From positions 1-64,000 of the forward strand of contig CANHHA010000003.1 of the NCBI GenBank assembly GCA_947460825.1: a DNA stretch of 64,000 bases, read 5' to 3'. Below, one piece after another: positions 9,951 to 43,199 of the stretch (the first letter of the stretch is position 1; each line of letters begins with the position of its first letter). The DNA is from Flavobacteriales bacterium (lineage in GTDB: Bacteria > Bacteroidota > Bacteroidia > Flavobacteriales_D > Crocinitomicaceae). The position numbers and the translations under genes were made by a program. The notes beneath the pieces were generated by a model that saw only the letters and a program-made list of their open reading frames with translations, was not told the DNA's origin and did no database searches.

Positions 9951-10914
9951 GAAAAATTTGATCAACAGTAATTCCCGAAATACACGAGCACTCCTGTTGC
10001 AATGCACAACGCGGGCAGAACGGGTCTTTCACTAATGCCATGGAGCGCATCCCTAATGGTTTCCAGCGACCTGGATGAATTGGTGTGCGGACGGAAAAAA
10101 GACCAATGGCCTTTATATTCATGAGCCCTGCCAAATGAAGCGGACCCGTGGAGCATGCAACAAGGGCATGAGCATTGCTAATCAAGGCAATCAACTCACG
10201 CAGCGAACATTTACCACATAAATTTTCAAGCCCCGGAATACCCTCAAAAGCATCTCCTATTCGGTCTCCTTCCGACGCTGTACCCGTAATTAATATGCGT
10301 AAGTTGGCCTGAGAGAGCACTCGGGCGAGCGCTGTGTAACGCGATAACGGATATTCTACCGCACTTCCTTGCGACAAGGGGTGTAACACAACATATCCAG
10401 CATCGAGCGTGCTCATTACTTTGGGAACAGAAAAACTCGATTCCACAGCCTGAATTGCTTCAAAAGAGGGAAGCGCGTGAAGGCCCAATGGTAAAAGCAA
10501 ATTAAAATTGAGTTGCGCTTCGTGAAGTGATGAGTTTTTTCGTGTAAATGGCACTCTGATATTACAGGTAAACCAATGAAACCATCGATGGCTTGTTCCA
10601 ATTCTGTAGGGGATTCCTGCTTTCCTTGCCCATGAAGCAACCTGTTTATTCGGAAAAACGTGAAGAATCACATCGCCTTGAAGTAAGGTGTTTCGAGTTT
10701 CATCCGATGCGCTCTCAAGGTCCTCTAAGATTAAAATCTCATCTACGGGATTAAAACACTGAACCACCTCGTTGGTATAACGTTTGCAAAGAAATACAAG
10801 TGTAGATTGTGGAAACTTAGCTTTAATCCAACTGCAAAGTGGTAAGGTTAGTGCCACGTCACCAATGCTATCGGTGCGAGAAATAATAATTCGAGGTGTA
10901 TTAGTTATGTTCAC
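9934..10914 (-). CDS. glycosyltransferase family 9 (ADP-heptose:LPS heptosyltransferase type)
   Basis: A 326-residue GT-B protein. The N-terminus (IIISRTDSIGDVALTLPL) is the family nucleotide-sugar transferase signature, and the C-terminal half has HPLSQGSAVEYPL, ILITGTASEGDRI and ACSTGPLHLAGL, the donor-binding region of GT9. Such enzymes transfer heptose or similar sugars to the LPS core on the inner face of the inner membrane. Translation begins at a GTG (10914), 14 bases inside the end of the GT2 gene, suggesting coupled translation. A cluster of Cys near the C-terminus (CPRCALQQECSC) is unusual and could bind metal. Neighbouring GT2 supports a role in lipid-linked glycan assembly; the exact sugar cannot be told. 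Confidence 0.85.
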   Translation of the reverse strand: MNITNTPRIIISRTDSIGDVALTLPLCSWIKAKFPQSTLVFLCKRYTNEVVQCFNPVDEILILEDLESASDETRNTLLQGDVILHVFPNKQVASWARKAGIPYRIGTSHRWFHWFTCNIRVPFTRKNSSLHEAQLNFNLLLPLGLHALPSFEAIQAVESSFSVPKVMSTLDAGYVVLHPLSQGSAVEYPLSRYTALARVLSQANLRILITGTASEGDRIGDAFEGIPGLENLCGKCSLRELIALISNAHALVACSTGPLHLAGLMNIKAIGLFSVRTPIHPGRWKPLGMRSMALVKDPFCPRCALQQECSCISGITVDQIFHAIQD

Positions 10915-11653
10915 GTTTCAATCGTTGGACTTCTTTGTATTTAAAAAAATTGGAGGCGGCGCTAATCCGAGCAATATGAAAACCCGCCATCCCGTCTAAA
11001 AACCCAAATTTAAATAGATACATAGCGATAAAGCGAAAAACGGCACTCAATATTGGTTTACCCCAATACACTTTTTTACCCTCAAGCACATACTTTGTTG
11101 CAGTGAGGGAAGAATAGTTGTCTGCACGTTGTCTGTGTTGTTCGTGCGAGTAATATGAATAATGATTTAAATGCCCTTTCAACAAAACTGGGGTAATATC
11201 CGCAGGAATCATTAGTATTTCGTGAACAATATCGCCTTCCCACCCATAGTCCTTAGGGAACAATCGAATCTTAACATCTGGATACCACCCTGAATGATAA
11301 ATCCAGGTTCCACAATAATTGGTTAAGCGATTAAGGGAAAATACTCCGTGGGTAAACTGTTGTTTTAACGCTAGTATCTCGTTGGATAATTCTGGGGAAA
11401 TTTCCTCATCAGCATCAATAGACAGAATCATATCGTAGGTAGCCTGTTGATTTAGGCGATTTTTCTGCTGTGCATAACCCAACCAAGGTTGGGTAAAAAA
11501 CTTAACCCCTTTTTCCAAACAAATTTCTTTGGTGCGATCTACAGACCCCGAATCCATTACCAAAATTTCATCTGCTATATCGCTCAAAGAATCTATACAG
11601 CGTGCAATGTTTCGTTCTTCATTAAGTGTGATAATCGCTGCGCTAATCTTCAT
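10901..11653 (-). CDS. glycosyltransferase family 2 (WaaE/KdtX-like LPS core enzyme)
   Basis: A 250-residue GT-A enzyme. It begins with ISAAIITLNEERNIARCIDS, has the nucleotide-binding LVMDSGSVDRT, the DXD-type SIDADEEI near residue 90 and the WaaE-like run FFTQPWLGYAQQKNRL. Related proteins add glucose to the LPS inner core. It is cytoplasmic or peripheral to the inner membrane. It overlaps the GT9 gene by 14 bases and sits 3 bases after the lytic transglycosylase stop, so the two transferases are certainly coexpressed. Confidence 0.88.
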   Translation of the reverse strand: MKISAAIITLNEERNIARCIDSLSDIADEILVMDSGSVDRTKEICLEKGVKFFTQPWLGYAQQKNRLNQQATYDMILSIDADEEISPELSNEILALKQQFTHGVFSLNRLTNYCGTWIYHSGWYPDVKIRLFPKDYGWEGDIVHEILMIPADITPVLLKGHLNHYSYYSHEQHRQRADNYSSLTATKYVLEGKKVYWGKPILSAVFRFIAMYLFKFGFLDGMAGFHIARISAASNFFKYKEVQRLKREHN

Positions 11654-11656
11654 GGG

Positions 11657-13156
11657 TTATTTAACTCGAATTCGGTCTCCCACGCGAATCATATTTCCTG
11701 CCCCTGGATTCAGTTTTTTTAATTGCGCAAGGGAAAGCCCATACCGTCCTGCTATTTTACTTAAGGTGTCGCCCGCCTTTACGGTGTAATATTTTTTGGG
11801 AATCACTGGTTTTACCGGATTAACGGGTGCCGGGGTAATCGTATTTATCTCCTTTAAGGTAAGGCGCTGCCCAACATACACATTGGATGTTTGAAGCGCA
11901 TTCCATTCCATTAATTGATCGGTAGAGACGCGATACTTCTGAGCAATGGTAGTGAGGGATTCCCCTGCCTTTACCTTGTGAAACCCATATTGCCCCGAGG
12001 ATGAATCGGGCAAAGAGGCTTGTACTTCCAGAGCGCTCGTGTCAGGGGTGAAGGGATTTATTGCTTGGGTGGGATTTTCTATGACGTACAAAGAATCTTC
12101 CGCACCAACCAGTAATAAAATTTTATCCAAAGGACCAGTTACACAGCGTTTTTTAATGGCTGCTGGTATATACTCCGTTTTATAAATCGGATTTAAGTCT
12201 TTAATTTGTTGAAGATTCCAATCTAATGCATCGGCGATGGTCTTCATGTGTAATCCGCGTTTCAAGCACATCGTATCCAATTGAGCATTATGGATTTTTG
12301 CTGGGGCGGGCATCAAGTTATGTTCTGCATGGTAGGTCATAAGGTATGCCGCGGCAATAAAAGTTGGCACATATCCTTGGGTTTCACTCGGTAAGCTAGA
12401 CCTAATCGCCCAGTATGAGCGTTGGTTTCCCGAGCGTTGAATAGCTCGGTTTATCGTACCGGGCCCTGCATTGTATGCCGCCAATGCTAAATTCCAGTCG
12501 CCATAAATACCGTACAATTTTTTTAATAACCTGCATGCAGCATCGGTTGCTTTTTGAGGATCCATACGCTCATCGATGTATGAGTTTTCTTCAAGCCCAT
12601 AATACAATCCGGTTCTATACATGAACTGCCACAAGCCAAGCGCCCCCGCCCGAGATTTCACTTGCGGACGCAAACCACTTTCGATACACGCTAAATATTT
12701 TAATTCCAACGGCAGGCCATATTCGGCTAATTTTTCTTCAAATAAATCAAAATAAAGGGCCGATCTTCCCAATACAATTTTCACAAAAGACCGCCTGTTT
12801 TCAGCAAAAAACCGGATAGAAGATAGGGTAATAGCGTTACAATCAAAACCAAAAGGGCTTTGATTATTCATTTGATTTAATCGAGTGCAATATACCTCAT
12901 CGCTGAATAGAGGTACGGTTGCATGCTCATAATTAAGGGCTTTAATGATTGAATCCGAGTATTTTGTGTTTGCATAATCCGCGTAGAAATAATTCAAGGA
13001 CTGTTCTACGGTATTTAAAAAATGATCGGGGTTGAGTGTGTCATTTGGATTAGTTAAGTAGGGGTTTTTCTGGCCAAATCCATAAAAGGATAGCACGATG
13101 AATAGATGCCCAGCGGCAATCCTAGGCTGTAGTCTTTTCCACCAATTCCGTTGCAT
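11657..13156 (-). CDS. LysM-containing lytic transglycosylase (MltD type)
   Basis: A 499-residue envelope protein. An N-terminal hydrophobic stretch (residues 15-28) serves as signal. The SLT domain spans roughly residues 140-290 with catalytic Glu159 in ACIESGLRPQ, then RAGALGLWQFM and NLALAAYNAGPGTINRAI. Two LysM modules lie at the C-terminus (KVKAGESLTTIAQKYRVS and TVKAGDTLSKIAGRYGLS) and bind peptidoglycan. Such enzymes cleave the glycan strand forming 1,6-anhydro ends. The ATG at 13156 lies 35 bases inside gatA; no closer ATG precedes the signal peptide. Family assignment is strong. Confidence 0.92.
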   Translation of the reverse strand: MQRNWWKRLQPRIAAGHLFIVLSFYGFGQKNPYLTNPNDTLNPDHFLNTVEQSLNYFYADYANTKYSDSIIKALNYEHATVPLFSDEVYCTRLNQMNNQSPFGFDCNAITLSSIRFFAENRRSFVKIVLGRSALYFDLFEEKLAEYGLPLELKYLACIESGLRPQVKSRAGALGLWQFMYRTGLYYGLEENSYIDERMDPQKATDAACRLLKKLYGIYGDWNLALAAYNAGPGTINRAIQRSGNQRSYWAIRSSLPSETQGYVPTFIAAAYLMTYHAEHNLMPAPAKIHNAQLDTMCLKRGLHMKTIADALDWNLQQIKDLNPIYKTEYIPAAIKKRCVTGPLDKILLLVGAEDSLYVIENPTQAINPFTPDTSALEVQASLPDSSSGQYGFHKVKAGESLTTIAQKYRVSTDQLMEWNALQTSNVYVGQRLTLKEINTITPAPVNPVKPVIPKKYYTVKAGDTLSKIAGRYGLSLAQLKKLNPGAGNMIRVGDRIRVK

Positions 13157-14528
13157 AGAATAATTCTTTTTCCCGAAATAGATCGGTCATTAATTGAACA
13201 CCAAATGGCAAGCCATTTGAATGTGTTCCGAGCGGGACACTGATCGCGGGATTTCCCGTTAAATTAGCATGCACCGTAAAAACATCTTGCAAGTACATTT
13301 CAATCGGATCCTTAACCTCACCAAGCTTAAAGGCCGTGGAAGGCGTTGTAGGCATTACCAAACAATCTATATGAGTAAATATTTCACGTGTCTTATCTTG
13401 TAACAATCTTCTCACTTGCTGACCTTTTCTATAATAGGTATCGTACTGCTCATTGGATAAAACAAACGTTCCGGTCATGATTCTGCGTTTAACTTCTTCA
13501 CCAAACCCTTCATTTCTAGAACGAATATAGGTATCTTCTACCCCTTCCGCCACCTGCGATCGATGTCCATAATGTACGCCATCGAAGCGTGCAAGGTTGG
13601 AGGACGCCTCTGCAGTGGTCAGTACATAATATACAGGAACCACAAAATCCATATAAGGAAAGGAAAACTCCTCTACTGTGTGTCCCTCATTCCGAAGCGA
13701 ATCCAATAAGGCATTCAAGGCGGATTTTACCTCCGCGTCTAATCCTGGGTGGTTCAAGTATTCGCTTAGCACACCAAAACGCATTGGAACTGTTAGGATT
13801 GCACCCGCATCGATTGGTTGTGAAGAACTTGTAGAATCCATCGGGTCTTTTCCTGCCATTATTTGGTACAATAGCGCAGCATCGTTTACATTGGTGGTGA
13901 AGGTTCCAATTTGGTCAAACGAAGAGGCGTAGGCAATCAAGCCATACCGGCTAATCCTTCCATAGGTTGGCTTAAGGCCGTATGTTCCGGTCCATGAGGC
14001 GGGCTGACGTACTGAGCCTCCGGTGTCGCTACCTAGAGAAACGGTACACAAACCAGCGGAAACCGCCACTGCCGAACCTCCCGAAGATCCACCAGGGACA
14101 TAATCCGGATTAATTGCATTGCGTACTGGACCATACGCAGATTTTTCATTAGAGCTCCCCATCGCGAATTCATCACAATTCAATCGGCCCAAAATAATGG
14201 CATCTTCGTCAATTAATCGCTGTATGGCTGTGGCCGTGAATAGCGACTCGAAGCCTTCTAAGATGCGCGAGGAAGCGGAAACGTTATGGTTTATATAGCA
14301 TAAGTTGTCTTTAATTCCCACAAAGGTACCGGCTAGTTTACCCGCATTCCCTTGCGTAATTTTCTCTTGAATTATTAGGGCTGCTTCACGTGAAGACTTT
14401 TCAAAAACCTCTAGATAAGCATTTAAATGTTTATTGGATTCGATTTGAATCAAATAATGTTCAAGTATATCCATGAGGGACGTACCCGACGCTACAGCCG
14501 ATTTGTTTTCTTGAATCGAATTAAACAT
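13122..14528 (-). CDS. gatA: Asp/Glu-tRNA amidotransferase subunit A
   Basis: A 468-residue amidase-signature protein. The catalytic triad positions are visible: Lys73 in GIKDNLCY, Ser148 in VPGGSSGGSAVAV and Ser172 in SDTGGSVRQPAS, with the same spacing as characterised GatA (75 and 24 residues). GatA releases ammonia from glutamine for converting Glu-tRNA(Gln) or Asp-tRNA(Asn) in the GatCAB complex. The presence of a tRNA-Gln(UUG) gene in the window is compatible with that route. gatB and gatC are not in this window. It starts 3 bases after tatA and overlaps the transglycosylase gene by 35 bases. Confidence 0.95.
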   Translation of the reverse strand: MFNSIQENKSAVASGTSLMDILEHYLIQIESNKHLNAYLEVFEKSSREAALIIQEKITQGNAGKLAGTFVGIKDNLCYINHNVSASSRILEGFESLFTATAIQRLIDEDAIILGRLNCDEFAMGSSNEKSAYGPVRNAINPDYVPGGSSGGSAVAVSAGLCTVSLGSDTGGSVRQPASWTGTYGLKPTYGRISRYGLIAYASSFDQIGTFTTNVNDAALLYQIMAGKDPMDSTSSSQPIDAGAILTVPMRFGVLSEYLNHPGLDAEVKSALNALLDSLRNEGHTVEEFSFPYMDFVVPVYYVLTTAEASSNLARFDGVHYGHRSQVAEGVEDTYIRSRNEGFGEEVKRRIMTGTFVLSNEQYDTYYRKGQQVRRLLQDKTREIFTHIDCLVMPTTPSTAFKLGEVKDPIEMYLQDVFTVHANLTGNPAISVPLGTHSNGLPFGVQLMTDLFREKELFYATELVEKTTA

Positions 14529-14531
14529 GGA

Positions 14532-14735
14532 CTACTTCTCTTCGATTTGTTTTTCGCTTGAGGCAGTAGATTTATTCTCTTCGTTTTTAGAAGCGTCTTT
14601 AAATTCCTTAATTCCTTGGCCTAGGCCTTTCATAAGTTCTGGAATTTTCTTTCCTCCAAACAACAATAATACAATAAGCAGAATCAGAATGATATGACCC
14701 ACTGAAAAAAGCTGTGCGTGTTGGATTTCTTGCAT
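14532..14735 (-). CDS. tatA: Sec-independent translocase subunit TatA
   Basis: A 67-residue protein with one N-terminal membrane helix ([20 protein letters not shown]), the TatA hallmark [10 protein letters not shown] at the hinge, an amphipathic helix ([11 protein letters not shown]) and a charged tail. TatA forms the pore for folded proteins with RR signal peptides. The ActB protein of this window has an RRDFLKFLG motif and may be a client. I choose ATG 14735: the frame extends to a TTG at 14756, but that codon lies inside the -7 element TACCTTTG (14761-14754), so it cannot be the start. It leads the tatA-gatA-transglycosylase-GT operon. Confidence 0.9.
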
Positions 14736-14753
14736 ACTAAGAATATTTTGAAA

Positions 14754-14785
14754 CAAAGGTACGGAATTCTAATTCAAATAGGCAA
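14754..14785 (-). promoter_or_regulatory. Bacteroidota sigma-A promoter of the tatA-gatA operon
   Basis: Minus-strand TTG (14785-14783), 21 bases, TACCTTTG (14761-14754), 18 bases before the tatA ATG. It lies just after the infB stop, so tatA and following genes can be transcribed independently of rimP-nusA-infB. Confidence 0.65.
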
Positions 14786-14789
14786 TGCA

Positions 14790-17414
14790 TTAAAGCTTTC
14801 TTGCAACTTCAACTTCTTCGTATGCCTCTACTAAATCTCCAATTTGGATGTCATTAAACTTATCGATATTCAATCCACATTCGTAGTTATTCTTGACTTC
14901 CTTCACGTCATCTTTAAAGCGTTTCAGAGATCCAAGCGTTCCGTTATGAATCACAATGCCATCACGAATTACCCGAACCTTAGCGGAGCGTTTGATGATT
15001 CCATCGACTACATAACATCCTGCGATGGTTCCAACTTTCGTAATATCAAATGTTTCACGAATTTCAGCGGTTCCCGTTACTTTTTCTTCAATATCCGGAG
15101 ATAACATTCCCTCCATTGCCGCTTTAATTTCTTCAATGGCCTTGTAGATAATGGAGTAAAGACGAATGTCGATTTGTTCCGTGTCTGCTAATTTTCTTGC
15201 ACCAACGGTTGGTCGCACTTGGAATCCGATGATAATAGCGTCAGATGCTGAGGCTAAGTTAATGTCAGCCTCAGAAATTGCTCCAACTCCTTTGAGTACT
15301 ATATTTACTTGAATTTCTGGGGTTGATAAATTTTGTAAGGCATCAGAGAGGGCTTCGATCGACCCGTCTACATCCCCTTTAACAATAATATTCAACTCTT
15401 TGAAGTCACCAATCGCTAAACGGCGTCCAATTTCATCGAGTGTAATGTGTTTATTCGTACGAAGGCCTTGTTCCCTATATAATTGTTCTCGTTTAGCAGC
15501 AAGTGCTTTGGCTTCTTTTTCATCATCCAATACATGAAATTTATCTCCTGCACTTGGAGCTCCGTTGATTCCTAAAATCGATAGCGGTTGCGCTGGTCCT
15601 GCAACTTTCAAGGCCACTCCGAGTTCATCATGCATTGCTCTTACGCGACCGTAATGTCTACCTACAAGAACCACATCTCCAATCCGCATGGTACCGGCCT
15701 CAACTAAGATGTTGGTAACATATCCTTTTCCTTTGTCCAACGACGATTCAATTACTGTTCCAACCGCATTTTTATTCGGATTTGCCTTGAGCTCCAACAT
15801 TTCTGCTTCCAGCAAGACCTTGTCTAGTAATTCAGGGATATTTATTCCTTTTTTCGCGGAAATTTCCTGTACCTGATATTTTCCACCCCAATCTTCTACC
15901 AAAATATTCATTTGGGATAATTGTTCACGGATTCGGTCAGGATTTGCACCCGGCTTATCAATTTTATTGATGGCAAAAATCATGGGTACATTTGCGGCCT
16001 GCGCATGAGAGATGGCCTCTTTTGTTTGTGGCATGACATCATCGTCTGCAGCAACAATAATAATTGCAAGGTCAGTGACTTGAGCTCCTCGAGCACGCAT
16101 TGCGGTAAAGGCTTCGTGACCTGGCGTATCAAGAAAGGTCATTTTACGATTGTCTTTTAGCGTGACCGAGTAGGCACCAATATGTTGGGTAATCCCTCCG
16201 GCCTCACCGTCTGTAACGTTTGCGTTTCGAATTCTATCTAATAGTGAAGTTTTACCATGATCCACGTGTCCCATCACCGTAATAATAGGGGGCCTAGAAA
16301 CCAATTCTGTCGGTAAGTCTTCTACCGTTAGCACGGCATCTTGAACTTCAGCACTAATAAACTCTGTTTCAAAACCAAATTCGTCGGCAACAATTTGAAT
16401 TGTTTCAGCATCTAAACGCTGATTAATCGATGCGAAAATCCCTAGTGACATGCATGCAGAAATAACCTGTGTGGGCTGTACGCTCATCATACTTGCTAAT
16501 TCTGAAACGGTCACAAACTCTGTAAGCTTGAGGATCTTATCGTCTAGTTCTGCAGCCATCATTTCTTCTTGACGGCGCTGGGCTACATTATCTCTTTTAA
16601 TTCTTCGATTCTTGGAGGACTTAGATTTGGACCCTTGACCGGATAGACGAGCGAGGGTTTCTTTAATTTCCTTTTGAATGTCGTGTTCAGATATTTCCTT
16701 TTTTTCCACCTTAAAGGCACCCGGTTTCGCAGGTTGCGGTTTTGCTCCGGGAGAAGGCGTTTCTACCTTCTTTATGCGTTTCCGTTTGCGCTTTTCTTCT
16801 TCTGCGGCAGCACTCGAAGCACTAGATTTAGGACGCTCAACTGGTAAAACAATTTTACCTAAGACGGTAGGCCCTGTCAATACGGTACGTACGGTTTTAT
16901 GGGTTTCAATCACCGGAGCGGCAGGTTTTTCTTCAACCTTGGGCTCTATTGGTTTTGGAGCCTCAATCTTAGGTTCCGGCAAAACAACTTCCGGCTTTTT
17001 CTTTGGCTTTAAGGCCTCCAAATCTATTTTTCCTACCACATTCACGTGTGGCTCATTCGGTTTTGGTTTAACGGTTTCGGGTTCCAAAACCGCACGTTTA
17101 ATTTCTTCTAGATTAATATCATCTCCTTCCTCGTCCTCCGCTGGCTTTGGTTGAATGGGCAATGTTTCTTGGCGCGTATCTCTGAGTGAAATCGATTCCT
17201 TTTTCTCTTTTTGGGCCGAGCCTTTCGCCTGTTCTTTCAAGGTTTGGTCGGCTGCAAATTCGGTACACAATAACTGAAAATGCTCTGGGTCTAATTTCGT
17301 ATTTGGATTAGAGTCAATCGTTATGCCTTTAGAGCCTAAAAATTCCACTAACGTTGGCAATCCAACATTTAATTCACCTGCTGCTTTTCCTAAACGAATG
17401 GGTTTCCCTGCCAT
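14790..17414 (-). CDS. infB: translation initiation factor IF-2
   Basis: An 874-residue protein. The N-terminus has a small IF2-N motif ([20 protein letters not shown]), then about 200 residues of Lys/Pro/Glu-rich linker, a second IF2-N region near residues 285-335, and the G domain with [17 protein letters not shown] and NKID. Domains II-IV that bind initiator tRNA follow and end in VEVARKL. IF-2 brings fMet-tRNA to the 30S subunit and promotes subunit joining. It is the third gene of rimP-nusA-infB, 27 bases after nusA. The biased linker explains a long open frame on the opposite strand, which is not a gene. Confidence 0.97.
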
Positions 17415-17441
17415 AATATTATTCCCTAATGTATTTCAAAA

Positions 17442-18677
17442 TTATTCAAATTCCGCATTCAAAATTCTGAATACCTCTTCAATTGTTTCTTTTTCTAAAT
17501 CGGTACGTTTAACCAATTCTTCAATATTCATTTCAAGTACAGACTTCGCAGTATCACAACCGATGGTTTTTAATTCATCAATAATCCACCCGTCTATTTC
17601 ATCTGCAAATTCTTCTAAATCAACGTCTTCCACATCCACTTCTCCATCGCGATACACGTCAATTTCGTAACCCGCTAATTTACCGGCTAGCTTAATGTTG
17701 TTTCCACCACGACCAATAGCTAAAGAAACTTGATCTGGTTTCAAAAACACTTTCACTCGTTTTTCTTCTTCATCAATTTCCATGGACGTTATTTTCGCGG
17801 GAGATAATGCTCGTTGAATAAGCAGCTGATTATTCGACGTATAATTAATCACATCAATATTCTCATTGCGCAGCTCTCTAACGATTCCATGAATTCGACT
17901 TCCTTTCATTCCGACGCATGCACCTACTGGATCAATACGGTCATCATAGGATTCAACCGCCACTTTAGCGCGTTCACCGGGCTCACGAACAATCTTTTTA
18001 ATGGTAATTAAGCCATCAAATACTTCTGGAACTTCCAATTCAAACAAACGCTCCAAAAACTCTGGGGCTGTTCTCGAGAGAATAATCACTGGAGTGCTGT
18101 TTCGCATGTCTACTTTTGAAACTACCGCTCGCACTGTTTCTCCTTTTTTGAAGAAATCTGACGGAATTTGTTCCGATTTCGGTAAAATAAGCTCGTTGTG
18201 ATCGTCGTCCATTACTAGGATTTCTTTCTTCCAAACCTGGTATACTTCTCCGGTAATTATTTCTCCTACGCGCTCCTTGTATTTCTTGTATAAATGATCT
18301 TTTTCTAATTCAAGAATTCGAGAAATCAGGTTTTGACGCAATGAAAGAACGTTTCGACGTCCAAAATCCATAAACTTAAATTCTTCCGTTACCTCTTCGC
18401 CGATTTCGAAATCAGGTTCTATTTTAATGGCATCAGAATAGGCGATTTCTGTATTTGGATCTTCCACTTCACCGTCATCAACGATCTCCTTATTTAGAAA
18501 AATCTGTACATCACCTTTCTCAATGTTCACAATTACATCGATATGTTCATCGGTATTGAACTTCTTTTTCAGCATGGCCCGAAATACATCTTCAAGCACA
18601 TGTTGCATGGTTTGCTTATCAATGTTTTTAAGCTCTTTAAACTCGGAAAAGGATTCAACTAAATCAATACTATTCAT
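17442..18677 (-). CDS. nusA: transcription termination/antitermination factor NusA
   Basis: A 411-residue protein of the length usual in Bacteroidota, lacking the C-terminal acidic repeats of E. coli. N-terminal RNA-polymerase-binding domain (about 1-125), S1 domain around residues 130-200 (VGEIITGEVYQVWKKEILV), KH1 (RIDPVGACVGMKGSRIHGI) and KH2 (VSLAIGRGGNNIKLAGKL), then a helix-hairpin-like tail. NusA modulates pausing, intrinsic termination and rRNA antitermination. In many bacteria it controls its own operon through leader terminators; a matching hairpin is present here in front of rimP. Confidence 0.97.
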   Translation of the reverse strand: MNSIDLVESFSEFKELKNIDKQTMQHVLEDVFRAMLKKKFNTDEHIDVIVNIEKGDVQIFLNKEIVDDGEVEDPNTEIAYSDAIKIEPDFEIGEEVTEEFKFMDFGRRNVLSLRQNLISRILELEKDHLYKKYKERVGEIITGEVYQVWKKEILVMDDDHNELILPKSEQIPSDFFKKGETVRAVVSKVDMRNSTPVIILSRTAPEFLERLFELEVPEVFDGLITIKKIVREPGERAKVAVESYDDRIDPVGACVGMKGSRIHGIVRELRNENIDVINYTSNNQLLIQRALSPAKITSMEIDEEEKRVKVFLKPDQVSLAIGRGGNNIKLAGKLAGYEIDVYRDGEVDVEDVDLEEFADEIDGWIIDELKTIGCDTAKSVLEMNIEELVKRTDLEKETIEEVFRILNAEFE

Positions 18678-18683
18678 TGGTTT

Positions 18684-19157
18684 TTATTTAAAGGATATTA
18701 CACGTTTTATTTCTTTTATTTCTTTCGCAGGGATGGCAAATTCTTCTGCTATAAGTTCATTTTTATTCTTTTCGTTTTTAACGATTCGTTCTATCGATAC
18801 TAAAAAACTATCGGCACTAAAGGACTTTAATGTCCCTTCAATTTGTACTCCGTCTGTTTTTAGAAAGGTCAAACGGCGGCCTGTATTCTTGACAAACTGT
18901 TTGTGATGGCGTAAGGGTCGATCCATACCCGCAGAGGAAACGTTCAGTTCAAAATCCACGGTTTCTCTATCCAGGTTATGCTCAACGTTCCGTGAAACTG
19001 ACATACAATCCTCAATAGAAACACCGCCCTCTTCTCTATCCAATTCAATACTGATCACATTTCGCGTTGAAATAGATAATTCCACAATAAAAAGCCCTCT
19101 ATTCAATTCCTGAATACGCTCTTCCGCTAATTTTAACACTACCTTTTTGTCAATCAT
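18684..19157 (-). CDS. rimP: ribosome maturation factor RimP
   Basis: A 157-residue protein with the two RimP halves: an alpha/beta N-terminal domain with LDREEGGVSIEDCMSVSRNV and DFELNVSSAGMDRPLRHHKQ, and an SH3-like C-terminal domain (VQIEGTLKSFSADSFLVSI). RimP helps assemble the 30S subunit. It is the first gene of rimP-nusA-infB; nusA starts 6 bases after its stop. The ATG lies only 3 bases after the U-run of a leader hairpin, and the promoter is about 50 bases upstream. Confidence 0.94.
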   Translation of the reverse strand: MIDKKVVLKLAEERIQELNRGLFIVELSISTRNVISIELDREEGGVSIEDCMSVSRNVEHNLDRETVDFELNVSSAGMDRPLRHHKQFVKNTGRRLTFLKTDGVQIEGTLKSFSADSFLVSIERIVKNEKNKNELIAEEFAIPAKEIKEIKRVISFK

Positions 19158-19160
19158 AGT

Positions 19161-19187
19161 AAAAAAAGAGGGGACTGTCGTCCCCTC
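19161..19187 (-). terminator. intrinsic-terminator-like hairpin in the rimP leader (putative attenuator)
   Basis: On the minus strand GAGGGGAC, loop GACA, GTCCCCTC (19187-19168) forms an 8-bp GC-rich stem, followed at once by seven T (19167-19161) and then the rimP ATG at 19157. It lies between the rimP promoter and rimP, with no gene upstream on that strand, so it can only act on this operon's own leader. The opposite strand lacks a T-run. Structure is seen; attenuation is inferred. Confidence 0.7.
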
Positions 19188-19206
19188 ATTATCATTTAAC
19201 CTAATA

Positions 19207-19238
19207 CAAAGGTAGGTTAATTATAAGAAACTTCCAAA
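19207..19238 (-). promoter_or_regulatory. Bacteroidota sigma-A promoter of rimP-nusA-infB
   Basis: Minus-strand TTTG (19238-19235), 20 bases, TACCTTTG (19214-19207). Transcription would begin near 19202, giving a leader of about 45 bases containing the hairpin at 19187-19168. Confidence 0.7.
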
Positions 19239-19252
19239 TCAAAAATTCGCAT

Positions 19253-19260
19253 TAATTTTG
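19253..19260 (+). promoter_or_regulatory. candidate -7 element of the DUF3109 gene
   Basis: TAATTTTG matches TAnnTTTG and lies 4 bases before the ATG at 19265, suggesting a nearly leaderless transcript. No convincing TTG element is visible at the expected distance. Confidence 0.45.
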
Positions 19261-19264
19261 AGGC

Positions 19265-19846
19265 ATGTTAATTGAACTCAACGACACCATTCTATCAGCA
19301 GAAATTTTCAAACGAAAATTTGTCTGTGATTTAGCATCTTGTAAAGGCGCATGCTGCGTTGAGGGCGACGCGGGTGCGCCACTAACTTCAGAAGAAGTAA
19401 TCCAAATTTCGGAGCACCTTGAGTACATCAAACCCTACATGCGCCGGGAAGGTCTTGCGGCAATTGAACGTAAGGGTGTTTCCTACCTGGACCAAGAAAA
19501 CGAACCTGTAACCATGCTTGTGGATGGGAAGGAATGTGCGTTTGTGTTTTTTGACAAAAATGAAACCGCCTTATGTGCGATAGAAGCCGCGCACCGCGCA
19601 GGAGCAATCGATAACATTAAACCCATTTCTTGTTCACTTTATCCCATACGTGTTAAGCAATATCCGAATTTTAAAGCACTCCAATTCGATGAGTGGAACA
19701 TTTGCGAATCCGCATGTGCCTGTGGAAGTAAGCTTGAAATGCCTGTATATAAATTTCTCAAGGAACCCATCATTCGGGCATTTGGGCAAGACTATTTCAA
19801 CGAGCTCGAACTTGTTGCCCCAGAAATAGAAAACATAGAGCCATAA
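19265..19846 (+). CDS. DUF3109 family Cys-rich protein
   Basis: A 193-residue cytoplasmic protein with the DUF3109 pattern: early Cys cluster in FVCDLASCKGACCVEGDAGAP, a central CAFVFF region, KPISCSLYPIR and a late cluster CESACACGS. The arrangement resembles zinc/iron-chelating YkgJ-type proteins, so a bound metal or Fe-S cluster is likely, but no biochemical role is known to me. It is a single gene divergent from rimP and convergent with ctaD, separated from the latter by a bidirectional terminator. Confidence 0.88.
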   Translation: MLIELNDTILSAEIFKRKFVCDLASCKGACCVEGDAGAPLTSEEVIQISEHLEYIKPYMRREGLAAIERKGVSYLDQENEPVTMLVDGKECAFVFFDKNETALCAIEAAHRAGAIDNIKPISCSLYPIRVKQYPNFKALQFDEWNICESACACGSKLEMPVYKFLKEPIIRAFGQDYFNELELVAPEIENIEP

Positions 19847-19848
19847 AA

Positions 19849-19867
19849 AAAGCCCCAATGGGGCTTT
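19849..19867. terminator. bidirectional terminator between DUF3109 and ctaD
   Basis: AAAGCCCC, loop AAT, GGGGCTTT forms an 8-bp stem between convergent genes. Upstream A-tract (19845-19851) gives a U-run for leftward transcription from ctaD; the rightward side has only TTT before mixed sequence, so it is stronger for the cox operon. Confidence 0.75.
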
Positions 19868-19873
19868 CAATCA

Positions 19874-21730
19874 TTAATGTTCTATTTCTCCTTCGGCTAA
19901 GGGCACATTCTGCGGAATAAAATCATCCGCTGCATCTGGTTTAGAGTAATCATAAGGCCAACGGTGAACAACAGGTAAGGCTCCCGGCCAATTTCCATGC
20001 ATGTGTTCCACTGGGGTTGTCCACTCTAAGGTATTAGACTTCCAAGGGTTTTGTGGCGCCACCGGACCTCTATAAATACTGTAGAAAAAGTTGAATAAGA
20101 AAATGCCTTGACCGACAGCTGCAATAATGGCAAACACCGTGATGATCACATTCAAATCCATGATCATATTAAAGGACTCCGTATCGAATTCACCAAAAAC
20201 AGAGTAATCATAATATCTTCTTGGTGCACCAGCAATACCCACAAAGTGCATCGGGAAGAAAACACCATAGGCGCCGACAATAGTTATCCAAAAATGTACA
20301 TACCCCATGCGATTATTCATCATGCGTCCATACATCTTAGGGAACCAATGGTATACCCCTGCAAACATTCCAAATACCGCAGACATACCCATTACAATAT
20401 GGAAGTGTGCAACAACGAAATACGTATCATGGACTGCAATATCTAACGCAGAGTCAGCCAAGATAATCCCTGTTACTCCACCTGTGATAAAGGTTGAAAC
20501 TAAAGCAATAGCAAACAACATGGCTGGCGTATACACGATAGAACCCTTCCACAACGTAGTTATATAGTTGAATACTTTTACCGCTGAAGGAATCGCAATT
20601 AACAAGGTGGTAAATACAAACACACTGCCTAAGAAGGGATTCATTCCGGTTATAAACATGTGGTGACCCCACACAATAAAGGATAGGAACCCAATCGCTA
20701 AAATAGACCCAATCATCGCTTTGTAACCAAAAATTGGCTTTCTTGCATTGGTGGCTATAATCTCTGAAGACAATCCAAGCGCTGGCAATAATACAATGTA
20801 TACCTCTGGGTGACCTAAGAACCAGAACAAATGCTGATATAAAATTGGTGACCCACCATGATTCGATAACATCTCGCTACCCACCATAATATCGGATAAG
20901 TAAAAACTTGTTCCTGCCATTCTATCCATCATCAATAGGAGTGCTGCAGACAAGAGAACAGGGAAAGAGAGTACGCCTAGGATTGCTGTAACAAAAAACG
21001 CCCATATAGTCAAAGGCATTCTTGTCATCGTCATTCCTGTTGTACGCAAATTCAATACCGTTACGATATAATTCAAGCTACCAATTAAAGAACCTGCAAT
21101 AAATATCGTCATTGAAAACAACCATAAGGTCATTCCGAATCCAGAACCGGATACTGCTTGCGGTAGCGCTGACAATGGCGGATACACCGTCCATCCAGCC
21201 ATCGCCGGACCGTTGCCTGTAGTTCCCCAATCTCCAGGGATATCAATTCCGAAAATCGAACCGTTCATCACGAACAACGAAAGGAACATAATCAGTGAAG
21301 AAAGGAAGAAAAACCAATAAGATAACATGTTTAAAAACCCAGATGCCATATCACGTGCACCTAATTGCAACGGAATTAATATGTTCGAGAAGGTTCCTGA
21401 TAATCCACCTGTTAAAAGAAAGAAAACCATGATTGTTCCATGAATGGTTACCAATCCTAAATACATGTCCTCTTTTAATACCCCTTCAGGAGCCCATTGA
21501 TCCCCTAAAAAGAAATTTAGAAAATCAGAACTTTCACCAGGCCATGCCAGCTGGATTCTAAATAGAATCGATAATAGCATCGCCACTAACCCCATAAATA
21601 CCGCAGTTATCAAAAACTGCTTGCCAATCATTTTATGGTCTTGACTGAAAATATATTTAGAAACAAAACTTTCTTCATGATGATGCTCGTGGTGATCATG
21701 AGAATGTACATCGTGCGCTGTTGAAGCCAT
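19874..21730 (-). CDS. ctaD: cytochrome c oxidase subunit I
   Basis: A 618-residue haem-copper oxidase core subunit with about twelve membrane helices. Key motifs: WFLGHPEVYIVLLP (CuB His and its cross-linked Tyr), HHMFITGM (CuB His pair) and HDTYFVVAHFH (haem a3/a ligands). A His-rich N-terminal tail (HDVHSHDHHEHHHEE) precedes the first helix and may bind metal. It reduces O2 to water and pumps protons. It is the last gene of the act-cox operon, 26 bases after coxB, matching the complex III-oxidase supercomplex known from Flavobacterium. Subunits III and IV are not in this run. Confidence 0.97.
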   Translation of the reverse strand: MASTAHDVHSHDHHEHHHEESFVSKYIFSQDHKMIGKQFLITAVFMGLVAMLLSILFRIQLAWPGESSDFLNFFLGDQWAPEGVLKEDMYLGLVTIHGTIMVFFLLTGGLSGTFSNILIPLQLGARDMASGFLNMLSYWFFFLSSLIMFLSLFVMNGSIFGIDIPGDWGTTGNGPAMAGWTVYPPLSALPQAVSGSGFGMTLWLFSMTIFIAGSLIGSLNYIVTVLNLRTTGMTMTRMPLTIWAFFVTAILGVLSFPVLLSAALLLMMDRMAGTSFYLSDIMVGSEMLSNHGGSPILYQHLFWFLGHPEVYIVLLPALGLSSEIIATNARKPIFGYKAMIGSILAIGFLSFIVWGHHMFITGMNPFLGSVFVFTTLLIAIPSAVKVFNYITTLWKGSIVYTPAMLFAIALVSTFITGGVTGIILADSALDIAVHDTYFVVAHFHIVMGMSAVFGMFAGVYHWFPKMYGRMMNNRMGYVHFWITIVGAYGVFFPMHFVGIAGAPRRYYDYSVFGEFDTESFNMIMDLNVIITVFAIIAAVGQGIFLFNFFYSIYRGPVAPQNPWKSNTLEWTTPVEHMHGNWPGALPVVHRWPYDYSKPDAADDFIPQNVPLAEGEIEH

Positions 21731-21756
21731 GTTTATTGAGTTTAAATCTTAATTAA

Positions 21757-22992
21757 TTAATTCATTGCGGTTTTAACGGTATCCGCGACAGGATTTGTTG
21801 CAGGTGCTGCAGGAGCAGGGAAGTAGGTGTCTTTAAAGGTTTTGGTGCCTTTGCCTTTCATCCATGCATTGTATTCTGCTTCTTCCAAAACAACGACCAT
21901 CATCTTCATTTTATAATGTGCTCCACCACAAATTTTATTACACATCAATACGTAATGAAACGTTGGAAGATTCTTGATTTTTCGCATTTCTGCAGTAGTA
22001 GTGTTTGGTGTAAATTTCATACGCGTACCATATCCCGGAACCGTATTCATTTGGGTTCTGAAATGCGGGAAATACGCGGAATGTATGACATCTTTGGATC
22101 GAAATGAAAGCTCATAAGGCTTATTCACACACAGGTACAATGTGTCGCGCTGTATGATATCATCGTACACGTGCTTATCTAAAGCTACATTGTGCGTGGA
22201 CTTCATTTGATTAAGCAAGCGAAGTAGGCGTTCTTTGGTGCCTAGATCTTTTCTCAGGACGTTCACCAAGGAGTCGGTAAGTACGGTATCTCTATTATTT
22301 AGTGTTTTTTGGATATCTAAAATACCTCCTGCTCCATGTCGCATTGCCTGTATCGATGAATCAATGGTTGCTGCAGTCATTAGGCCTAATTCGTTGGTTC
22401 CCGTGATTAATTTATAATCTGTCCGCCCTAGTGTGTTGTCACCGCCAGAATATCTTGCTGTCCAGTCGAATTGCTTAGAGTACAATTCAAGGCTGATGGC
22501 GTCTTTTGGTGAAGCGCCGGTTACATCGTTCCACGTTTGCAATCCAAGAATTATTACAACCGCTAATACTGCTGCTGGAACTACCGTCCACAACATTTCT
22601 AGTTTATTGTTGTGCGGGTAATAATATGCCTTAACTCCCGGGCGTTTTACATACTTAAATGAAAAATAAAACAGCAAGTAATTAGTTATAAAGAAAATTG
22701 CCGATACCAGCACGAGATTTAAGTTGAGTAACCAATCGGTCGACTCTCCCTGTATTGACGCAGCGGGTCCTCTGCCGGTCCAACCATATTTCAACATGAG
22801 GTAGATAAACCCTCCAAACTGAATTACCATAAAGGCAAGCATCAGCTTTGCGTTCAAATAATTGTCTCGCATTGGAATCTCATGTTCATCATGCTTTCTC
22901 AACTTGGCTGCTAATTCATACACTCTAACAAGTTGCGCAATAGCAATCGCACCTATTACAACAATCAAGATTATAATCAATTTACTTTCCAT
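21757..22992 (-). CDS. coxB: cytochrome c oxidase subunit II
   Basis: A 411-residue protein. Hairpin of two membrane helices in the first 160 residues and a periplasmic cupredoxin domain. The CuA site is complete: upstream His in HSAYFPHFR, then Cys351, Cys355, His359 and Met362 in CNKICGGAHYKM. Between the first cupredoxin strand (QFDWTARY, near residue 175) and the rest lies an insertion of about 90 residues, mostly helical and charged, absent from typical subunit II. Bacteroidota proteins often carry such an insert; its role is unclear. A Pro/Ala-rich tail ends the protein. Receives electrons from the complex III cytochromes. Confidence 0.95.
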   Translation of the reverse strand: MESKLIIILIVVIGAIAIAQLVRVYELAAKLRKHDEHEIPMRDNYLNAKLMLAFMVIQFGGFIYLMLKYGWTGRGPAASIQGESTDWLLNLNLVLVSAIFFITNYLLFYFSFKYVKRPGVKAYYYPHNNKLEMLWTVVPAAVLAVVIILGLQTWNDVTGASPKDAISLELYSKQFDWTARYSGGDNTLGRTDYKLITGTNELGLMTAATIDSSIQAMRHGAGGILDIQKTLNNRDTVLTDSLVNVLRKDLGTKERLLRLLNQMKSTHNVALDKHVYDDIIQRDTLYLCVNKPYELSFRSKDVIHSAYFPHFRTQMNTVPGYGTRMKFTPNTTTAEMRKIKNLPTFHYVLMCNKICGGAHYKMKMMVVVLEEAEYNAWMKGKGTKTFKDTYFPAPAAPATNPVADTVKTAMN

Positions 22993-23010
22993 TTCTTCCG
23001 CTTATTATCG

Positions 23011-24198
23011 TTAAAATTCGTGATGTATACTTTCATCCAAAAACGGGTGATTAACCGGCGTTAGAGGCGCACTTGCTAAGTTTTTAAACAAGATCAATAT
23101 GAAAACACCCGCCATAACCAAAGGCAATCCAATTTCTAAAAGACCAATATTCCAATTAGCCCCAAGGGAACCTCCGGAGACCATAATAAACACATCTAAC
23201 CAATGGCCTATTAAGATAACCAAACCAACGAACATGAGAACCCCTGTATCGCGTTTAGCGTCTCTTGACATTAAAATTAACATCGGGAAGACGAAATTAA
23301 TGAAGAACATTCCGAAATATAAATACTTATAGTTTTCTGTTCTCATTACATAATAAATCACCTCCTCACCAATGTTTGCATACCAAATAAGCATGTATTG
23401 TGAAAACCATAAATAAGACCATAAGAAGGAGATTGCGAAGATCCATTTACCAATGTCATGAATGTGAGAATCATTCACATGTGGTAAATACCCTTGTTTC
23501 TTCAAATAAATGGTAGTTAAAACAATAACGACCATTGCGGATACCCACATCCCAGCAAACGTATACCACCCGAACAAGGTACTATACCAATGTACGTCAA
23601 TGGACATCAACCAATCCCAGGCAGACGTTGAGCTAAATACAGCAAAGAATACCAAAAACGTAGCCCCCTTGCGATAATTTTTAAAGTGGATTTCGGTTCC
23701 GCCCACTTGATCTTCAAGTAAAGAACGCTTTCTGAACCCTCTCAAGAACAGTAAGTACACCGTAAAATAGACTAGGGTACGAAGCCAGAAAAACGCCATA
23801 TTTAGATATGCTGACTTCCCTTGAATGAGCTCATCTTCGGCTACCGTATGAGCGTCCATCCAAGTGTAAATATGAGCGCCCTTCATAAAGGAAATAGTCA
23901 GTAAAATCAATCCGAAAATTCCAATCCCGTAAGGTAGAAACAAGGCAACGGATTCTATAATACGCTTCACTACGGCATACCAGCCGGCTTCGGTAGCATA
24001 ATTTAATGCCAAGAAAAACAAGGCTCCCAAACCAATCGCCATAAAGAAAAAGGCATTGATTAAGCCGTTTGTCATTAAGCGTGTTGTGAAGTGTGCCTCT
24101 CCGATATTAGTTATTATTCCAACAATAGCTAATAGCGCCCCAACTCCGATTAAACCGAACGCTGTCTTTTTTGCTTTTTTAGTGATTGTAAATTCCAT
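23011..24198 (-). CDS. actF: alternative complex III subunit ActF (quinol:cytochrome c oxidoreductase membrane subunit)
   Basis: A 395-residue protein with about ten membrane helices, of the ActC/ActF family related to NrfD/PsrC. Recognisable pieces are FWLRTLVYFTVYLLFLRGFR, WDWLMSIDVHWYSTLFGWY and SFLWSYLWFSQYMLIWYAN. In alternative complex III it is a membrane subunit near the quinol site and interacts with the oxidase. I use ATG 24198, 4 bases after the actE stop; the frame stays open back to 24252 but that region overlaps actE and would put 18 polar residues ahead of the normal start. Confidence 0.92.
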   Translation of the reverse strand: MEFTITKKAKKTAFGLIGVGALLAIVGIITNIGEAHFTTRLMTNGLINAFFFMAIGLGALFFLALNYATEAGWYAVVKRIIESVALFLPYGIGIFGLILLTISFMKGAHIYTWMDAHTVAEDELIQGKSAYLNMAFFWLRTLVYFTVYLLFLRGFRKRSLLEDQVGGTEIHFKNYRKGATFLVFFAVFSSTSAWDWLMSIDVHWYSTLFGWYTFAGMWVSAMVVIVLTTIYLKKQGYLPHVNDSHIHDIGKWIFAISFLWSYLWFSQYMLIWYANIGEEVIYYVMRTENYKYLYFGMFFINFVFPMLILMSRDAKRDTGVLMFVGLVILIGHWLDVFIMVSGGSLGANWNIGLLEIGLPLVMAGVFILILFKNLASAPLTPVNHPFLDESIHHEF

Positions 24199-24202
24199 GA
24201 TC

Positions 24203-24925
24203 TTATTTTTGTTTTGTTGTATCTGCAACTGCCGCAGTACCATTCGCATCAAATTTGCCGTAATCTGGAGACTGAAGGCTTCGGATGTAGTGAATAACAG
24301 TCCATATTTCTTTTTTATTCAAGAGGGATCGGTGAGCACCCATCATTCCTTTACCGTAATAAATGGAATAAAACATTTGACCGTCTGATAAGGCTGCGCG
24401 TTCCGCGTAATTGGGAACACCATTGTAGGCACCAGAGGTTACCATTGGACCATTCCCGTCTCCTTTTTCACCGTGACAATGTTGACACATCGCCGTAAAC
24501 AATTCCTTTCCTTTCGACAGTAGGGCCTCTGCATTTTTCGCATTTAACGGAATCATACTAGCATCAGCCGCAGCAGCCGTATAATGATCTTCTTTCGTTA
24601 ACAAATCGCTATACATCCCATGGCTCGCTTTAAAAGATTCGTTTGCCAATCTAGCATACGGCATCATTAAACGAACTTCTGTGCTGTCTGTGCCCACGTA
24701 AGGAATAGCGAAAGCAGGTGGAGTCATTGCAGTAAGGCGTGTTTTTTTGGATTCATCTATCCGGCCTCTAACTTCACCATAATCAACATATGCTTCTACG
24801 GCAGGAGAGCGATACATATCCGGCATGTATTCTAACCCGGGGCTATCTGCGTTGGAGGTACATGCACTTAGCACAAATACGCTTACCGATAACATTCCAA
24901 CAATTCTCAAAAAGGACTTTTTCAT
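24203..24925 (-). CDS. actE: alternative complex III subunit ActE (mono-haem cytochrome c lipoprotein)
   Basis: A 240-residue lipoprotein: signal peptide with lipobox VLSAC, then a cytochrome c domain with haem site CQHCHGEKGDG near residue 148 and a distal Met in GMMGAH. It is anchored on the periplasmic side and passes electrons from the ActA haems towards the oxidase. It lies 16 bases after actD and 4 bases before actF. Confidence 0.92.
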   Translation of the reverse strand: MKKSFLRIVGMLSVSVFVLSACTSNADSPGLEYMPDMYRSPAVEAYVDYGEVRGRIDESKKTRLTAMTPPAFAIPYVGTDSTEVRLMMPYARLANESFKASHGMYSDLLTKEDHYTAAAADASMIPLNAKNAEALLSKGKELFTAMCQHCHGEKGDGNGPMVTSGAYNGVPNYAERAALSDGQMFYSIYYGKGMMGAHRSLLNKKEIWTVIHYIRSLQSPDYGKFDANGTAAVADTTKQK

Positions 24926-24941
24926 TCGTATTCCTTAATTC

Positions 24942-25478
24942 TTATTCAATAATTTTTTTATCTAGCTCAACGAACCCTGTATCTTTCAATAACTCGTCAA
25001 GTTTATCCTCGGTTACTCCATGGTTTTCTGACAATCTGATTTCCATGACAAATTTATCATCTGTGGTTCTTGGGTCTGGATTTTGTGCCGGCATACCAGG
25101 AAGTGTACGATTTAACAATAAGTATGTGATTGCCATCCCATGTGCTGCACACAACACCGTAAACTCAAAAGTAATAGGAATAAAGGCCAAAACATTTTCA
25201 GCGTATGAAAAGTTTGGTTTACCACCAATATTCATTTTCCATTCCACAACCATGAAATAATACATTCCAATGGTGGCTAAGGCTAGGCCGGTTAATCCAT
25301 ATAGAAAAGCCATTATTCCCAAGCGAGTGCCTTTAACCCCAATAATTGGGTCGATGCCGTGAATAGGAAACGGGCTGTATACTTCGGAAATTTTAACTCC
25401 ATTTGAGACTAATTTTTTAGCGCTAGACTTTAGCACATCGTCGTCTCCATACATTGCATATATTACTTTATCTGACAT
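24942..25478 (-). CDS. actD: alternative complex III subunit ActD (DUF3341)
   Basis: A 178-residue DUF3341 protein. The N-terminal domain carries VYSPFPIHGID, a conserved DUF3341 feature, followed by two membrane helices (LGIMAFLYGLTGLALATIGM and a second around residue 105-125). ActD is a small membrane-anchored structural subunit of complex III. It is spaced 9 bases from actC and 16 from actE. Confidence 0.93.
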   Translation of the reverse strand: MSDKVIYAMYGDDDVLKSSAKKLVSNGVKISEVYSPFPIHGIDPIIGVKGTRLGIMAFLYGLTGLALATIGMYYFMVVEWKMNIGGKPNFSYAENVLAFIPITFEFTVLCAAHGMAITYLLLNRTLPGMPAQNPDPRTTDDKFVMEIRLSENHGVTEDKLDELLKDTGFVELDKKIIE

Positions 25479-25487
25479 AATCCGATA

Positions 25488-26876
25488 TTAATGATGTTTG
25501 TGATAATCCGGTGACTCTTTGTACGACTGGCCTGAGCCTTTCAAAATTGTTTTAACTTCATTTAGCGCCAATACTGGGAAATAACGCGCAAACAACAAGA
25601 AAAACACAAAAAACAATCCAATGGTTCCTATATAAACAGCAATGTCAATATGACTTGGGTAATGCATGCTCCATGCCGCAGGAATATAATCCCGGTGAAT
25701 CGACGTAACAATAATCACATAGCGTTCAAACCACATTCCGATATTTACCACAATTGAAATGAAGAAGGTAAACAACAAACTTCTACGCAATTTTCGTATC
25801 CACATGAGCTGAGGTGAGATCACGTTGCAAGTCATCATCGACCAATAAGCCCACCAATAAGGTCCAGTAGCACGGTTTAAAAAGGCATAGGCTTCATACT
25901 CCACACCAGAATACCAAGAAATAAAAAGTTCTGTAATATAGGCTGTTCCAACAATTGAACCGGTCACCATGATTACAATATTCATGTACTCTACGTGCTT
26001 GGTATGGATGTACGCCTCAAGATTCATTGCTTTACGCATCACCAATAAGAGGGTTTGAACCATTGCGAATCCAGAGAATACTGCACCCGCCACAAAGTAA
26101 GGTGGGAAAATCGTAGTATGCCAGCCTGGAATCACGGAAGTTGCGAAGTCAAAAGATACAATCGAGTGCACAGAGAACACAAGCGGTGTAGCTAATCCTG
26201 CTAGCACCAAAGAAACCAATTCGAATCGAGTCCAATGTTTGGCTCTACCTGACCACCCAAAAGATAGGATGGTGTACATGCGTTTTGCGACTGGTTTTTT
26301 AGCCCGGTCACGTATTGTAGCAAAATCAGGAATCAACCCAATGTACCAGAACACTAAAGAAACAGACAAATACGTAGAAATCGCAAATACGTCCCACAAC
26401 AAAGGCGAGTTAAAATTCACCCACAATGATCCAAAATGATTCGGAAGCGGAAGGACCCAATATCCGACCCAAAGCCTTCCCATGTGAATTAACGGAAACG
26501 TTCCTGCCATAAATACAGCGAAAATTGTCATGGCTTCCGCCGACCGGTTAATCGCCATTCTCCATTTTTGACGGAACAATAAAAGTACGGCAGAAATCAA
26601 GGTGCCTGCGTGACCAATACCAACCCACCATACAAAGTTTGTGATATCCCAAGCCCAACCAATGGTCTTATTCAAGCCCCAAACGCCAATACCGGTGCCT
26701 AACAAGTATAGTATCGATCCCACACCGTATAGGCCAACAATTAATGCGATTGCAAATAATATGTACCACATTTTTGGTGCCTTTCCTTCAATCGGCCTGC
26801 ATACATCTTCCGTTACATCGTGGTATGTTTTATTTCCAAGAATTAAGGGTTCCCTTATTGCTGCTTCCTTTTGCAT
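25488..26876 (-). CDS. actC: alternative complex III subunit ActC (NrfD/PsrC-type quinol-binding membrane protein)
   Basis: A 462-residue protein with about ten membrane helices. NrfD-family features include TNFVWWVGIGHAGTLISA, FAVFMAGTFPLIHMGR and HSIVSFDFATSVIPGWHTT. ActC holds the quinol oxidation site on the periplasmic half of the membrane and passes electrons to the Fe-S clusters of ActB. It sits 29 bases after actB. Confidence 0.95.
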   Translation of the reverse strand: MQKEAAIREPLILGNKTYHDVTEDVCRPIEGKAPKMWYILFAIALIVGLYGVGSILYLLGTGIGVWGLNKTIGWAWDITNFVWWVGIGHAGTLISAVLLLFRQKWRMAINRSAEAMTIFAVFMAGTFPLIHMGRLWVGYWVLPLPNHFGSLWVNFNSPLLWDVFAISTYLSVSLVFWYIGLIPDFATIRDRAKKPVAKRMYTILSFGWSGRAKHWTRFELVSLVLAGLATPLVFSVHSIVSFDFATSVIPGWHTTIFPPYFVAGAVFSGFAMVQTLLLVMRKAMNLEAYIHTKHVEYMNIVIMVTGSIVGTAYITELFISWYSGVEYEAYAFLNRATGPYWWAYWSMMTCNVISPQLMWIRKLRRSLLFTFFISIVVNIGMWFERYVIIVTSIHRDYIPAAWSMHYPSHIDIAVYIGTIGLFFVFFLLFARYFPVLALNEVKTILKGSGQSYKESPDYHKHH

Positions 26877-26905
26877 TGCTCTTGCTTTTAATTTCTTTTA
26901 ATATC

Positions 26906-42952: not shown

Positions 42953-43148
42953 GCTGATTGTTTTTAAATAGTTTGATTGAGCGAAAGACACGAAATACAG
43001 AATACAGCACTAAGACGGATACCAAAACCCCTCGCTTCCAGCCAAAAAGTCCTGGTAATTGATCGGTAAGGGCAATAAACAACGCTAAAAGCATCGCTGC
43101 AAAAACGACGGTTAAGCCGATGGCGGCATTGATTATTTTAAAATTCAT
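42942..43148 (-). CDS. small two-helix membrane protein
   Basis: A 68-residue protein with two membrane helices (INAAIGLTVVFAAMLLALFI and GVLVSVLVLYSVFRVFR) and a basic C-terminus. No family recognised. It lies between tonB and the PstS-like gene, overlapping the latter by 11 bases. Start ATG 43148 lies just after the U-run of the hairpin at 43154-43181; an earlier start would place the terminator inside the gene. Confidence 0.65.
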   Translation of the reverse strand: MNFKIINAAIGLTVVFAAMLLALFIALTDQLPGLFGWKRGVLVSVLVLYSVFRVFRSIKLFKNNQHGD

Positions 43149-43153
43149 GATAT

Positions 43154-43181: not shown

Positions 43182-43199
43182 CAAATGTATGATTACTGA

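Follow-up and report, generated by a model that had tools for sequence, protein, structure and literature searches.

A conserved terminator-like hairpin behind the promoter of rimP-nusA-infB in Bacteroidia is a probable attenuator linked to NusA

In the 64,000-nucleotide (nt) stretch of DNA analysed here (the window), a Bacteroidota-type promoter, a GC-rich hairpin and a T tract precede rimP-nusA-infB, an essential operon for transcription and translation, and this arrangement is conserved among relatives. We propose that the hairpin is a promoter-proximal intrinsic terminator that attenuates the operon, with NusA setting the level, a statement that, taken as a whole and judged from the DNA sequence, is probably correct. 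Its build and conservation make it highly likely that the hairpin terminates transcription, and the step that involves NusA is likely by analogy with other phyla. The element would very probably be a built-in brake of the kind known in other bacteria. Its parts and the genes behind it are laid out as follows:

19207..19238, minus strand: promoter, read from the sequence, made of TTTG (19238-19235), a 20-nt spacer and the -7 box TACCTTTG (19214-19207)
19188..19202, minus strand: predicted short leader, with a start at about 19202 taken from a box spanning -12 to -5
19168..19187, minus strand: terminator-like hairpin with arms 19187-19180 and 19175-19168 and loop 19179-19176, based on sequence, fold, conservation and kept pairing
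19161..19167, minus strand: T7 tract, predicted 3′ end of the short leader RNA, based on sequence and T-rich in relatives
18684..19157, minus strand: rimP (RimP_N, PF02576), ATG at 19157
17442..18677, minus strand: nusA (NusA_N, S1 and KH domains)
14790..17414, minus strand: infB (translation initiation factor IF-2)

The promoter (19238-19207), the 8-bp GC-rich hairpin, the run of seven T and the rimP ATG 3 bases further on were all found in the sequence where a first, sequence-only reading had placed them. On the minus strand the hairpin (19187-19168) reads GAGGGGAC-GACA-GTCCCCTC, with six G-C pairs among its 8 bp and GACA as its loop. It is separated from TACCTTTG by a 19-nt gap, and its stem ends 10 nt before the rimP ATG, the T7 tract (19167-19161) being followed by ACT and then by the start codon at 19157. 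This ATG is backed as the start by the invariance of M1 in 22 aligned RimP sequences, and the gene order downstream of the leader is rimP, nusA, infB. The -7 box agrees with the TAnnTTTG box of Flavobacterium, and the sigma-A -7 box of F. psychrophilum is given as -12 to -5 in PMC9723704; the same spacing would put the start here at about 19202, the stem from about +16 and the end of a terminated RNA at about 40 nt. Folding of a 63-nt segment gave -18.8 kcal/mol (z -3.16), a value equalled by 1 of 200 shuffles. A scan of positions 10000-29000 listed 26 terminator-like sites compared with a shuffle mean of 16.1, the rimP hairpin being entered on both strands, and this hairpin topped the list in G-C pairs. 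Across the window, 2 of the 61 TANNTTTG sites have a terminator-like hairpin within 75 nt downstream. On the divergent side, a TAATTTTG box stands 4 nt upstream of the ATG (19265) of the DUF3109 gene (region 19253-19265, plus strand); Flavobacterium spacing would put the start on that ATG, and the DUF3109 mRNA is thus possibly leaderless.

Within the family, rimP was present in 98 of 100 genomes searched, and the pattern GAGGGG N4-12 CCCCTCTTTT adjoins it in 97 of the 98; the sole exception (G014) carries the hairpin in a shorter form. The same pattern occurs at only 16 non-rimP places across the 100 genomes. The hairpin was found at every one of the best 30 of the 98 family rimP loci and at 79 of 80 rimP loci from titled records, a set that overlaps partly with the 100 genomes, the remaining locus (L153) having a changed form. 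Both arms are identical in the closest relatives, in which the loop and flanks vary. An AC/GT stem top is shared by 74 of the 97 family rimP hairpins, compared with 1 of the 16 like hairpins elsewhere. Some records bear the titles Chitinophaga pinensis, Chryseobacterium gleum, Candidatus Planktophila lacus, Actinomyces viscosus or Sphingomonadales on contigs with a Crocinitomicaceae-type RimP and leader; these titles (L097, L105, L139, L162, L163 and others) look wrong.

Conservation extends through the class and, in part, the phylum. A terminator-like site within 200 nt upstream of rimP was found in 31 of 31 family genomes (shuffles, 3 of 310), and in 121 of 130 class genomes additional to the family set (26 of 1,300). 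Beyond the class the figure was 35 of 65 phylum genomes (21 of 650); for these, distances were measured to the rimP domain match instead of the ATG, and the genomes were partly best matches and partly picked for family spread among the matches listed. In some genomes (for example, L080, L082 and L083) the best-scoring site is the terminator of the gene that precedes rimP, and the rimP hairpin is there too. Left out of this upstream analysis were 14 of 149 class genomes, in which a rimP match was absent. A second picker, whose score favours T behind the stem and a GGG arm, was run on 161 genomes of the class and family and found a GGG-arm hairpin in 150 of them, covering 52 of 57 families. The absence of a clear GGG-arm hairpin from 11 of the 161 counts against our reading. 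No examined member of f61, f72, f75, f82 or f92 has a clear one; f72 has a bulged hairpin upstream of rimP, f92 has a hairpin farther upstream of an uncertain start, and f75 is represented by one genome, three more having been left out. In f82, with genomes of about 2.0-2.2 Mb, the rimP hairpin is reduced in L234 and gone in L235 and L240; such a loss in nature could reveal what purpose the element serves. Outside the class the stem sequence is often wholly different, for example TCGCCC...GGGCGA or AGTCCC...GGGACT, and terminator character and place are common to a wider range of genomes than the sequence is. The polarity is opposite, with a C-rich 5′ arm and a G-rich 3′ arm (TCGCCC...GGGCGA), in L033, L051, L056, L058, L059 and L061 (f15) and in L044 (f33).

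The stem is constrained as a paired structure. In an alignment built without structure from the hairpins of 75 of these 161 genomes, 8 of 10 pairs have changes on both sides (51 cells compared with 12.0 in shuffles), and 92.3% of cells pair, compared with 42-70% when the arms are slid against each other. These counts describe the cleaner part of the class and family hairpins, near-duplicates and rows with a shifted, bulged or cut stem (for example, f43, f47, f67 and f52) having been left out. RNAalifold, unaided, returned the same 8-bp stem with both-side changes in 6 of 8 pairs, and the two central G-C pairs of the stem are invariant. The compensatory changes in relatives that the sequence-only reading had proposed as a check on the hairpin are present in 8 of the 10 pairs of the alignment. 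As in an intrinsic terminator, the GC-rich stem is followed directly by a T tract, and both are kept in relatives.

Searches based on the hairpin alone did not single out rimP. An RNA model of it was ruled out as a rimP-specific finder, since ordinary terminators match it too: 93 of 99 class genomes gave at least one match at E ≤1, and one class genome gave at least 31. Three other matches checked in this genome lie at gene 3′ ends and have the GGGG...CCCC build with different top pairs; the rimP hairpin shares its build with the terminators of this genome, yet it is placed behind a promoter. For a loose pattern of TTTG, a gap and GGGG...CCCC, searched in 20 relatives, the match count was about that of a reversed control, and the pattern was uninformative on other genes. 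Rfam at gathering scores returned only two tRNAs over the window and no rimP-leader match, and permissive limits applied to the leader gave no rimP-leader match either. The best sub-threshold match, STnc290 (24.7 bits; cut-off 60), spans only the hairpin and T tract, looks generic-terminator-like and was rejected. The Rfam family RF01770 (rimP) describes the leader of the same operon; unlike the short hairpin here, it is a model of 102 positions, and it stayed below its gathering cut-off in both the window and the whole genome, matching only E. coli among 14 control genomes. A second site in the window (43148-43218, minus strand) has TAAGTTTG within the 3′ end of a tonB-like gene, followed by GATCCCC...GGGGATT and a T tract (stem 43182-43159) and then by the in-frame ATG (43148) of a small open reading frame. 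This hairpin is probably the terminator of the tonB-like gene; the layout resembles a second promoter-proximal terminator, and a promoter there is possible.

Neither an antiterminator nor a sensor domain was seen in the leader. Among 139 leaders, complementarity to either arm showed no excess, the longest pairing averaging 2.96 compared with 3.02 in shuffles for one arm and 3.59 compared with 3.56 for the other, and six leader-arm pairs were reached in 5 and 4 leaders, respectively. A short leader free of excess complementarity fits control by a protein and not by an RNA switch. The same lack of an antiterminator or sensor domain would suit a constitutive brake, in which a fixed share of transcripts is removed without regulation. 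We regard this as unlikely, because the AC/GT top is common in the family rimP hairpins and rare in like hairpins elsewhere, because the hairpin keeps its position behind the promoter throughout the class and because a weaker promoter could do the work of a mere brake; moreover, regulation is known in B. subtilis (passage on NusA in the review PMC12288461).

The element resembles leaders described in other bacteria. In the main text of Naville and Gautheret 2010 (PMC2965389), the rimP-leader is predicted more often than any other attenuator. Its terminator has the conserved form GGGc...gCCC, and no antiterminator is visible; NusA is proposed there as its reader, RimP is also considered, and Bacteroidetes are not named. 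Here, too, a terminator-like hairpin with a G-rich 5′ arm, a C-rich 3′ arm and a T stretch stands between the promoter and rimP-nusA-infB, without an antiterminator and at a variable distance from the gene. In place of GGGc...gCCC, however, the window has GGGGAC...GTCCCC, a form found in 81 of 150 relatives compared with 13 of 150 for GGGC...GCCC, and we therefore class the leader as a variant, not a plain member, of the rimP-leader. It is a Bacteroidota variant of the known rimP attenuator, a useful finding of little surprise to a specialist.

The original study of NusA autoregulation in B. subtilis is reportedly that of Mondal et al. 2016. According to the relevant passage of a review (PMC12288461), NusA of B. 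subtilis limits its own synthesis by stimulating termination in its 5′ leader; that feedback was demonstrated experimentally, whereas the present leader is known from sequence alone. The B. subtilis rimP leader is also longer, at about 180 nt in the main text of PMC2965389 compared with about 45 nt predicted here. In S. agalactiae, in the part of PMC4448216 that treats gbs0413-gbs0418, RNA-seq placed termination 31 nt after the operon start, and NusA feedback was suggested; the termination site is likewise very near the start of rimP-nusA-infB, in another phylum and from RNA-seq in place of sequence. Closer to the window, the main-text list of PMC9723704 names a structured 5′ element before rimP of F. 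psychrophilum, found in other Flavobacteriaceae genera and without Rfam hits; by that description it is very likely the same element as the hairpin here. A literature search covering mostly papers free of subscription found no description of a mechanism for the rimP leader in Bacteroidota. The likeness to B. subtilis and S. agalactiae makes the NusA autoregulation put forward in the sequence-only reading plausible.

A leader terminator might also be read by a factor other than NusA, such as NusG, Rho-linked events, RimP, IF2 or ribosome supply. RimP was considered for the rimP-leader, as noted above, and E. coli rimP reporter fusions are expressed at a lower level when Rho is mutated, for a reason that the authors call unclear or indirect in the section reporting them; other factors may thus act. 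For NusA, in contrast, feedback through its own leader has been demonstrated in a different phylum (PMC12288461, in the passage cited), and we consider a different reader improbable.

The spacing of the element bears on its mode of action. Of 150 relatives, 147 have a TANNTTTG box no more than 70 nt upstream of the stem, compared with 5 of 149 in a window farther upstream and 5 of 150 in shuffles. The box-to-stem distance, which the hairpin picker did not use, has a median of 24 nt (quartiles 20-26, range 5-31); from stem to ATG the median is 21 nt (quartiles 13-34, range 6-74). T averages 6.9 in the 9 nt behind the stem compared with 2.0 before it, a difference that leans towards the claim because the picker rewards T. 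Spacing that is tight towards the promoter and loose towards the start codon, together with the T tract, fits termination and not start-codon hiding. The stem might instead serve at the 5′ end to protect the mRNA or to keep ribosomes away from the rimP start region, with the T run as an incidental feature, and its end 10 nt before the ATG in the window would suit such a role; given the 6-74 nt between stem and ATG, a promoter-to-stem distance that does not vary in this way and the T enrichment (with the picker effect just stated), this is very unlikely, and start-codon hiding, which the sequence-only reading had also entertained, was set aside. That reading had further held that no upstream gene exists on this strand, which is true of the immediate neighbour, the opposite-strand DUF3109 gene, and not further out, where COX1 (19874-21730, minus strand) is the next same-strand gene. 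An insulator against readthrough from COX1 would belong before the promoter, whereas the hairpin follows the promoter box in those 147 of 150 genomes, and this reading, which has next to no probability, was set aside. The reading as a leader attenuator is well supported by conservation, pairing-keeping changes, the T tract and the near-fixed promoter spacing.

In the mechanism that we propose, RNA polymerase would start at about 19202, form the GAGGGGAC/GTCCCCTC hairpin at about +16 to +35 and reach the U tract just before rimP. There a share of polymerases would terminate, yielding an RNA of about 40 nt, and the remainder would read through into rimP-nusA-infB. Because an antiterminator would have little space in the leader, which shows no excess complementarity to the arms, the size of the terminating share would most likely depend on a protein that acts on the polymerase. 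The likeliest such protein would be NusA, the product of the second gene: more NusA would increase termination and lower expression of the operon. NusA-dependent terminators are usually weak, and the perfect T tract in the window therefore counts against NusA as the reader.

A more specific form of this proposal, which we hold to be speculative and rather unlikely, is that the leader is a NusA meter, with the terminator held at an almost constant distance from the promoter (stem start at about +16 to +22), a conserved AC/GU top and no RNA switch, because the polymerase must meet the terminator as sigma leaves and NusA loads. If so, the share of transcripts cut would be a direct reading of free NusA, common to most of the class, and the supply of RimP, NusA and IF2 would be set together. 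With attenuation as the probable function, the present analysis widens the range of a known core-operon attenuator to take in most of the class Bacteroidia, supplies a consensus for a leader without an Rfam model and offers a compact natural element with which termination by a Bacteroidota polymerase and NusA may be tested.
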